A stretch of 32,350 nt of DNA from Bacteroidia bacterium (GTDB taxonomy: Bacteria > Bacteroidota > Bacteroidia > Chitinophagales > Saprospiraceae). A model generated the notes under the pieces. The model saw only the letters and a list, made by a program, of their open reading frames with translations. It made no database searches and was not told the origin of the DNA. Shown here in pieces: positions 26,280-32,350 of this stretch (within the stretch, counting starts at the first letter, position 1; every line of letters starts with the position of its first letter). The position numbers were made by a program, and so were the translations under genes. Location of the stretch: assembly GCA_030431945.1 (NCBI GenBank), contig JAUIIF010000002.1, positions 1-32,350 of the forward strand, in the 5' to 3' direction.

Positions 26280-26300
26280 ACGATCTGTCCGCAGTAAGGC

Positions 26301-26341
26301 ACAACGCCCGCTCTCCGCCCGGAGGGCGGGCGTTGTCTTTT
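26301..26341 (+). terminator. Rho-independent terminator after the MFS gene
   Basis: ACAACGCCCGC...GCGGGCGTTGT perfect 11-bp outer stem, inner CTCC/GGAG, then CTTTTA. Confidence 0.8.
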
Positions 26342-26395
26342 ACCCCTGGTGGTTCACCCCGGTAAGCGGTAAGCCGGCTTCTTAGCTTGCCGGCA

Positions 26396-30151: not shown

Positions 30152-31435
30152 ATGTCAACCTCTCAAGCAGCCCCCATTGTCATTATTGGAGCCGGCCCTG
30201 GCGGCGCAGCCACTGCATTACGGCTTTCGTACCTGGATATTCCCTGTGTCCTGATCGACAAGGCAACCTTCCCCCGCGATAAGATTTGCGGCGATGCCCT
30301 CAGCGGCAAGGTACCGACCCTGCTGAACCGGCTCGACCCTGCCATCATGGAACGCTTTCGTCAGCGTTTCACCCCCATCGATGTCTGGGGCATCCGCTTC
30401 ATCCCCCCCTCGAAAAAACTGATTGAACTGCCCTTTAAGGTCGGCTACGAACGCGTCCCTGACGAAGCGCCCGGCTACGTCTCCAAACGCATGGATTTTG
30501 ATGCGTTCCTGGTGGAAGAGGTACAACGCCGGAGCAATATTACCTTACACCTTGGTACCGAGATCGGTAGTTGGGAGAAAACGGCTACGGGCTATACCGT
30601 TTATACCAAGGACAAGGCACAGAGCTGGTCTTGCCGCCTGCTTATCGATGCCAGCGGTGCCCACAGCCGCTTCAGCAGAAAGGAGGCCGGTCAGGAAATT
30701 GACCACGACCACCATGCGGCGGCCGTCCGGGCCTACTGGAAGGGCATCAGTGGGTTTCACCAGGACAACTTCATCGAACTCCACTTTCTGGAAAAGTACA
30801 ATCCGGGCTATTTCTGGATCTTCCCACTCCCGAACGGAGAAGCCAACATCGGACTCGGGATGCGGTCCGACATCGTCAAAAGAAAGAAAATCAACCTGCG
30901 CGAGGCACTGGACGAGATTGTTGCCTCTCCGGAATTCCGGGACCGTTTTCAGGACGCTGAGCCGATTGGCCCGACAATGGGGTACGGGTTGCCGCTGGGC
31001 TCGAAAGACCGGGTACTGTCGGGTGACAACTACCTCCTCGTCGGAGACGCCGGTCATTTGATTGATCCACTTACGGGAGAAGGCATTGGTAATGCCACCT
31101 ACTCGGGCTTTATTGCCGCGGAACTGGCAGAAAAGTGCCTGGCCGAGCAGCGTTTTGACGCAGCGTTTTTACGGGACTACGATGTTCGGATTGAGCGGGT
31201 ACTACGCTCAGAATTGCGACTCAGTTACCGGATGCAACAGATCATGCAAATTAAATGGTTGACAAATTTGCTGACGGGCATCGTTGCAGCCAACCCGAAG
31301 GTCATTGAAGTACTCTGTAGAATGTACACCGATTTTGAATTGCGCAAGCAATTGGTCAAACCGATGTTTTGGTGGAAGCTGTTTCGGGCCAAAAATGGCA
31401 AGCTCCCGGCAATAGATTCAGCGGCTACAAAATAA
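30152..31435 (+). CDS. Geranylgeranyl reductase family / FAD-dependent oxidoreductase
   Basis: PIVIIGAGPGGAATALRLSYLDIPCVLIDKATFPRDKICGDALSGK ... LLVGDAGHLIDPLTGEGIGNATYSG. Confidence 0.92.
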   Translation: MSTSQAAPIVIIGAGPGGAATALRLSYLDIPCVLIDKATFPRDKICGDALSGKVPTLLNRLDPAIMERFRQRFTPIDVWGIRFIPPSKKLIELPFKVGYERVPDEAPGYVSKRMDFDAFLVEEVQRRSNITLHLGTEIGSWEKTATGYTVYTKDKAQSWSCRLLIDASGAHSRFSRKEAGQEIDHDHHAAAVRAYWKGISGFHQDNFIELHFLEKYNPGYFWIFPLPNGEANIGLGMRSDIVKRKKINLREALDEIVASPEFRDRFQDAEPIGPTMGYGLPLGSKDRVLSGDNYLLVGDAGHLIDPLTGEGIGNATYSGFIAAELAEKCLAEQRFDAAFLRDYDVRIERVLRSELRLSYRMQQIMQIKWLTNLLTGIVAANPKVIEVLCRMYTDFELRKQLVKPMFWWKLFRAKNGKLPAIDSAATK

Positions 31436-31541
31436 GCTAACGAAATTTTAACGTTATTTTAGTGATATTTCGTAACAAATTGGCCGGATCGGCAGTTAAA
31501 GAATTAGTTGATTAAGTTTCATATACTAGTGAGTGTAAAGT

Positions 31542-31583
31542 GAGCCTCCGACCCTGTTTGACGGGTACGGGGGTTCTTTTTTT
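31542..31583 (+). terminator. Rho-independent terminator after the geranylgeranyl-reductase-like gene
   Basis: GAGCCTCCG ACCC-loop-GGGT CGGGGGTTC stem (with G:U pairs) followed by TTTTTTT. Confidence 0.75.
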
Positions 31584-31600
31584 GGGGAAGCGATACCGAC

Positions 31601-31658
31601 CGGGTCATATGGAGAAGTCCCTGTTGCAATTGCAACAGGGACTTCTCCATATGACCCG
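31601..31658. repeat. 58-bp perfect palindrome, zero spacer
   Basis: CGGGTCATATGGAGAAGTCCCTGTTGCAA|TTGCAACAGGGACTTCTCCATATGACCCG; all 29 arm positions complementary. Confidence 0.97.
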
Positions 31659-31694
31659 CGGTCTGTTTTACCAGGGCCTTTCGCGCCCTGCAGC

Positions 31695-32350
31695 CTAAGG
31701 CTGCACCGTTTCCACTACCCGGACGAACCTTACTTCGCCCGTGGCACTATCCCTTACGCGTACCAAGTAGCTGCCGGCCGGTAGCCCCAGTCCCGTCAGG
31801 CGGGCCGTCCGGGTTCCGGCGTCAAGGGTGCGACTGTTCAGTAACCGTCCATTGACGTCCATCAGTTCCAACGTTGCGATTGCCGCCAGGGGCTCCCGGA
31901 ACTGCAGGGTGAGTTCATCCGTAAACGGGTTGGGGAATACCTTGCTTTCCAAAGCATTGTCAGCACCTGCGGCCGCGCCTACGACGACCCGTCGTGGCGC
32001 CCCGTCTGCAGCCACGGCGACGGATTGCCCCGCCTCTTCCACCAGGCTAAGCATTTCCGGTAAACGCCCGGCCTCCTCGGCCAGTACGTTCAGCACCAGG
32101 GTATGTTCCGTTTGGCCTGTTTCCAGTTGCAGCAGCTGCAGCGTGCCGTTGTCCAGGCGGAATGCATGCGCCGGTAAATCCGTGTGTGCAATGCCGAGCA
32201 ACTGCAGGCCCGTGGCCGCCAGTTTCAGCTGAAAACCCGCCAGTTGTTCGCCCGTAAGGCGGAGCTCCACCAGGCGTTGCTCGCCCCGCATTACCGTTGC
32301 CTCCGGCACTTCCACCGTGAGACCAACCTGTAAGTTGTCTACGCTGAGGA
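31695..32350 (-). CDS. Secreted protein with T9SS type A C-terminal sorting domain (5' end outside window)
   Basis: ESKVFPNPFTDELTLQFREPLAAIATLELMDVNGRLLNSRTL...LPAGSYLVRVRDSATGEVRFVRVVE; frame remains open to the window edge. Confidence 0.9.
   Translation of the reverse strand, partial: LSVDNLQVGLTVEVPEATVMRGEQRLVELRLTGEQLAGFQLKLAATGLQLLGIAHTDLPAHAFRLDNGTLQLLQLETGQTEHTLVLNVLAEEAGRLPEMLSLVEEAGQSVAVAADGAPRRVVVGAAAGADNALESKVFPNPFTDELTLQFREPLAAIATLELMDVNGRLLNSRTLDAGTRTARLTGLGLPAGSYLVRVRDSATGEVRFVRVVETVQP
31963..31979 (-). repeat. Copy D of dispersed element in the T9SS protein gene (exact)
   Basis: Plus strand GCACCTGCGGCCGCGCC; encodes GAAAGAD just before the sorting domain. Confidence 0.85.

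Follow-up and report, generated by a model that had tools for sequence, protein, structure and literature searches.

This locus raises the question of why a perfect palindrome of 58 bp should stand between two convergent genes. The stretch of DNA analysed in full (hereafter the window; 32,350 bp) is contig C828 of a 5.09-Mb draft genome in 884 contigs. Its host is a marine bacterium represented by a fragmented, Neolewinella-like draft, and its closest named relatives are Neolewinella. A preliminary description had reported the palindrome, its perfection, its zero spacer, its central motif, and the convergent orientation of its neighbours; all of these were confirmed, and the neighbouring genes were identified. 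The upstream gene (30152..31435, plus strand, start inferred) encodes a geranylgeranyl reductase family protein (TIGR02032, 182 bits, above the cut-off) that is 91% identical to its counterpart in N. persica. The downstream gene (31695..32348, minus strand) codes for a T9SS type A sorting-domain protein (TIGR04183); the window covers its C-terminal part, and the 5' part extends past the contig end.

Anatomy and uniqueness of the palindrome

The palindrome occupies positions 31601..31658 and belongs to neither strand in particular. Its arms (31601-31629 and 31630-31658) are 29 nt each, 100% complementary, and separated by 0 nt, meeting at TTGCAA/TTGCAA (the slash marks the junction). It is real and far beyond chance, as about 2.5e-11 such palindromes are expected per 5.1-Mb genome of the same composition. 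No other perfect hairpin with arms of at least 12 nt was detected in the window. As RNA, either strand gives a 27-bp stem with a 4-nt loop, with folding energies of -59.5 and -60.2 kcal/mol on the two strands (z about -13), and the DNA fold reaches -37.3 kcal/mol. The hairpin also has an imperfect outward extension (31595..31662), in which ACCG..CGGT pairs with a 2-nt bulge.

A genome search with the 29-bp arm, proposed in the preliminary description, found a single copy even when 3 mismatches were allowed, and the 32-bp core matched nothing in any other of the 150 family genomes. Comparison with viral contigs, phages, and plasmids gave no match either, and a mobile or phage origin was rejected on this ground. 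In Rfam 15, the palindrome had no match above the gathering score; microRNA-type matches were rejected, as they lay far under their cut-offs and reflected merely a long hairpin. An invertible DNA switch has a flippable segment between inverted repeats, which a spacer of 0 nt does not provide.

Like REP/BIME elements, the palindrome is extragenic and lies between convergent genes, as REPs often do (PMC3733652), and it could accordingly be viewed as a REP/BIME-type repeat or the end of a MITE or transposon. However, such elements occur in many copies, whereas this one is single, lacks the GTAG/CGTC tag, and is absent from the phages, plasmids, and viral contigs mentioned above. Furthermore, no match to a Y1/REP-type (RAYT) transposase was found in the genome with PF01797, a model that did give matches in 5 of the 14 genomes used as controls. 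For the palindrome sequence this reading is already refuted, unless copies sit in assembly gaps, and we regard it as extremely improbable. Membership of a repeat family was likewise rejected, the arm being single-copy and unlike the other hairpins of the genus.

The perfect dyad symmetry and the strong DNA fold would also suit an element that works at the DNA level, either as the site of a dimeric protein or as a cruciform affecting supercoiling or replication between the converging units. Converging transcription increases positive supercoiling between genes, which counts in its favour. On the other hand, regulator sites recur in a genome whereas the arm does not, 58 bp exceeds typical dimer sites, and the other hairpins of the genus have no sequence in common with the palindrome; a DNA-level function is therefore unlikely.

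In a fragmented short-read draft, a fold-back or chimeric join introduced during assembly or library preparation has to be considered as well. The number of contigs is high, the palindrome is 692 bp from the contig end, and contig C56 matches the final 140 bases of the window contig at 139 positions (one mismatch). Because C56 repeats these 140 bp, the contig end can be regarded as an ordinary assembly break. A fold-back would run into the same flank, whereas the palindrome is bordered by two distinct genes. This pair is likewise convergent in N. persica, with a 57% identical T9SS orthologue, and in a second congener (G016), with a weaker homologue; a fold-back is unlikely for this reason, and a chimera is not supported in view of the synteny with N. 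persica. In addition, 58 bp is shorter than what seems to be the scale of the overlaps (140 bp), and comparable hairpins are present in the assemblies of cultured type strains. Taken together, an artefact is very unlikely.

Long hairpins at gene ends in Neolewinella

We surveyed 1.21 Mb of Neolewinella DNA for hairpins with a gapless stem score of at least 9, mismatches being allowed. Such hairpins were present in 24/74 convergent spacers (none once the sequences were shuffled), 37/249 tandem spacers, and 9/77 divergent spacers, although the gene calls were mechanical and crude and the true counts will differ somewhat. The difference between convergent spacers (24/74, 32%) and all others (46/326, 14%) was significant (p = 0.0005), and the convergent excess was also seen for stems of at least 14 (p = 0.006). 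The palindrome itself was left out of the convergent count because the gene caller missed the reductase gene of the window. The earlier proposal of a bidirectional 3'-end hairpin is retained as a candidate function. The preliminary description had added that the palindrome would be an ordinary terminator if most convergent gene ends had perfect hairpins like it; about one third of these ends carry one, more than elsewhere. Since two thirds of the convergent spacers are without such a hairpin, it is not obligatory there.

Several hairpins of the genus are perfect and combine long arms with short loops, with arm/loop sizes of 28/12, 26/2, 25/9, 24/1, 20/5, 20/0, 19/4, 19/1, and others, and a 22/3 hairpin lies beside the reductase gene of another congener (G004). 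A T-tract is missing from several, and probably many, of the convergent hairpins, as it is from the palindrome. The arms that were compared showed no sequence shared with the window arm, and most of them are unique. The palindrome, as a long near-perfect stem with a short loop between convergent genes, corresponds to the definition of this class. An excess of closely spaced inverted repeats in intergenic DNA is general to most bacterial phyla (PMC4060949), and the palindrome fits this picture; the arms in such surveys are about 8-15 nt, whereas the palindrome has a perfect arm of 29 nt. Separately, N. persica contains a 40-bp perfect palindrome (L106:4684-4730) that arose from tandemly repeated ATAGTTCA and resembles a product of fold-back copying.

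Three spacers with orthologues in other genomes showed that the position of the hairpin is kept while the stem is altered; in one clear case the changes are compensatory. One of the three involves a second long hairpin in the window (26294..26343), which belongs to the same class and lies between convergent MFS (plus strand) and EamA (minus strand) transporter genes. The spacer (26280-26395) has orthologues in N. persica, G008, G015, and G019, and a strong hairpin occupies the same place in four of the five genomes; that of G019 has none. The stems of this genome, G008, and G015 are GC-rich and related, and that of N. persica is AT-rich and unrelated to them. At another gene end, common to G015 and G008, the hairpins of the two genomes are distinguished by three double compensatory changes in a row (GGGCAGAA/TTCTGCCC versus GGGTGAAA/TTTCACCC), and a hairpin between tandem genes of G010 is retained in G002, where its T-tract has been lost. 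To judge from these alignments, a constant place with changing stems would look like the expected picture of selection on the hairpin with occasional block replacement. Terminators used on both strands by convergent genes are known, and they are more strongly constrained (PMC5381666, PMC1852404). Template switching gives block-wise matched changes, and a single switch can yield a stem without mismatches (PMC8794818); the clustered changes between G015 and G008 match the pattern expected of it. Long hairpins are common at gene ends in the genus, and in three spacers they hold their position although the stem differs; for these reasons we take the palindrome to be the largest member of the class among those with no spacer.

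Possible role and origin of the palindrome

On the plus strand, a strong intrinsic terminator (31542..31583), consisting of a stem followed by T7, ends 17 nt upstream of the palindrome, which counts against a 3'-end role. The preliminary description had assigned it to the upstream gene; the hairpin and its T7 are indeed present, but they end a separate conserved element, a candidate small RNA, and not simply the reductase gene. On the other side, the palindrome provides a stable RNA hairpin just 3' of a gene, as intrinsic terminators do, 36 nt after the stop codon of the T9SS gene; a small hairpin without a T-tract (CAGGGC...GCCCTG, 31674..31692) lies in between. The lack of a T-run immediately beside the palindrome, which had been pointed out before, was confirmed on both sides (on each strand, the 8 nt that follow the stem include 3 T), and the terminator scan did not list the palindrome. 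Because no U-tract directly follows the stem on either strand, classical intrinsic termination at the palindrome is doubtful. Lacking a U-tract, it would act as a pause or termination hairpin, or as a barrier to exonucleases after Rho-dependent termination.

The best explanation, which we hold to be reasonably probable, is that the palindrome is a lineage-specific, extreme transcript-end hairpin of the Neolewinella class that ends or protects transcripts, chiefly the mRNA of the T9SS protein. Transcription from either side, which we infer for this spacer, would produce an RNA that folds into the 27-bp stem, and this stem may help to stop or pause RNA polymerase or may block 3'-5' exonucleases after Rho-dependent termination. 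The palindrome would thereby form a 3'-end structure common to both sides, chiefly serving the T9SS mRNA, whose stop codon is close by and for which no other good terminator is present, and would back up read-through from the side of the small RNA and the reductase. The emphasis on the T9SS transcript is proposed because the plus strand has its own terminator upstream and the T9SS gene has none besides the palindrome; its counterpart in G016 has a T-tailed hairpin, which lies in the spacer nearer to the T9SS gene.

The closest known systems are bidirectional intrinsic terminators, described as 'tail-to-tail' by TransTermHP (PMC1852404) and in B. cereus (PMC5381666). Like them, the palindrome is a strong GC-containing hairpin near two convergent gene ends and folds from the same DNA on both strands, and compensatory pairing was seen in related spacers. 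Unlike them, it has no A-tract or T-tract flanks, its perfect zero-spacer stem of 29 bp is much longer, and its plus side already has a terminator.

The perfection of the palindrome would be best explained by template switching during replication, whereby the growing strand serves as its own template and a single event creates or repairs the two arms. Such an origin is plausible. As in template-switch hairpins and quasipalindrome correction (PMC8794818, PMC7202029), the arm pair could be explained by one event, and a neighbouring class member carries a clustered multi-base compensatory change; an ancestral or intermediate sequence is absent for the palindrome, in contrast. The same mechanism might have left a functionless palindrome, made by fold-back copying in an unconstrained spacer and short enough to be tolerated. 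Perfect hairpins are possible in one step (PMC8794818), and the palindrome is perfect, unique, and located where every relative differs after the conserved element. A weak likeness to a single arm in G016 (GGAGGAGTCCCTCGTTGAATT versus GGAGAAGTCCCTGTTGCAATT; score 22, between the 99% and 99.9% null levels) would be compatible with a single ancestral arm that was duplicated later; a single-arm ancestor was nevertheless rejected, as the alignment, though suggestive, is non-significant after 20 regions. However, the hairpins of the genus are concentrated between convergent genes and keep their place despite stem change, a pattern not expected of a purely neutral process; it was seen in other spacers and not in that of the palindrome. 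A neutral by-product is conceivable, and we consider it doubtful.

The exact spacer of the palindrome is kept in no close relative, and past the conserved element the sequence of each relative differs completely. In N. persica, the nearest relative, the T9SS orthologue is convergent to the reductase gene on the same contig, 2.1 kb downstream. An insert of about 1.9 kb (G005:C2:146342-148274) with peptidase-like and RHS-like fragments separates the conserved element from the T9SS gene in that genome.

The preliminary description had also argued that cleavage of the SbcCD type usually makes such palindromes unstable. Palindrome inviability is known for lengths well above 100 bp, and this argument is weak at 58 bp; N. 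persica, which has SbcD, carries hairpins with arms of 20-28 bp. SbcD scored over the cut-off in 19 of 20 congeners, including those with long hairpins, and was not found in the draft genome of the host. Of sbcC, at least the C-terminal part is present in the host (G000:C719:6167-6856, L185), and because of this sbcD is probably in an assembly gap rather than lost. Loss of SbcCD as the reason why the palindrome is tolerated was rejected, given the sbcC part in the host and the long hairpins in N. persica. The risk of instability rises with arm length and with a shorter spacer (PMC7999016). The earlier interpretation of the palindrome is, overall, partly supported.

More speculatively, near-perfect hairpins without a U-tract might be rebuilt continually by template switching in Neolewinella and its relatives and serve convergent genes as shared 3'-end structures. 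The palindrome would then be the freshest or most perfect of them, its pairing renewed by the mechanics of mutation rather than by slow pairwise compensation. Mutation in single steps hardly accounts for long perfect stems. In Neolewinella, long hairpins occupy about one third of the convergent spacers, and stems are entirely exchanged or altered block by block at an unchanged position. Such a genus is a natural setting in which to test whether terminator-like RNA hairpins are built and renewed by template switching, and whether a bacterial transcript can terminate at a hairpin that has no U-tract.

The adjacent conserved element

The element that ends with the intrinsic terminator described above spans 84 nt (31500..31583, plus strand). 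It occurs in one copy in each of the 21 genus genomes (21/21), where its core (AGTTGATTAAGTTTCATATACTAGTGAGTGTAAAGT) is nearly invariant and its terminator stem is variable. The best Rfam match was BTnc049, which at 18 bits against a cut-off of 81.9 was not significant. The element looks like an undescribed small RNA or an RNA linked to a 3'-UTR. As a candidate Saprospiraceae small RNA absent from the Rfam library searched, it is a more novel find than the palindrome. Its position is often, though not always, 3' of the reductase gene. Among 395 genomes of the class, the strict core pattern matched two, both Neolewinella. Outside the genus, a covariance model detected the element in eight further genera of the family Saprospiraceae (ten genomes) and gave one weak match, without the element core, in another family of the order. 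The copies in the other genera retain the core (GTTGGCTTAAGTTTCATAAACTAGTGAGTGTAAAGT), and their terminators are largely replaced.
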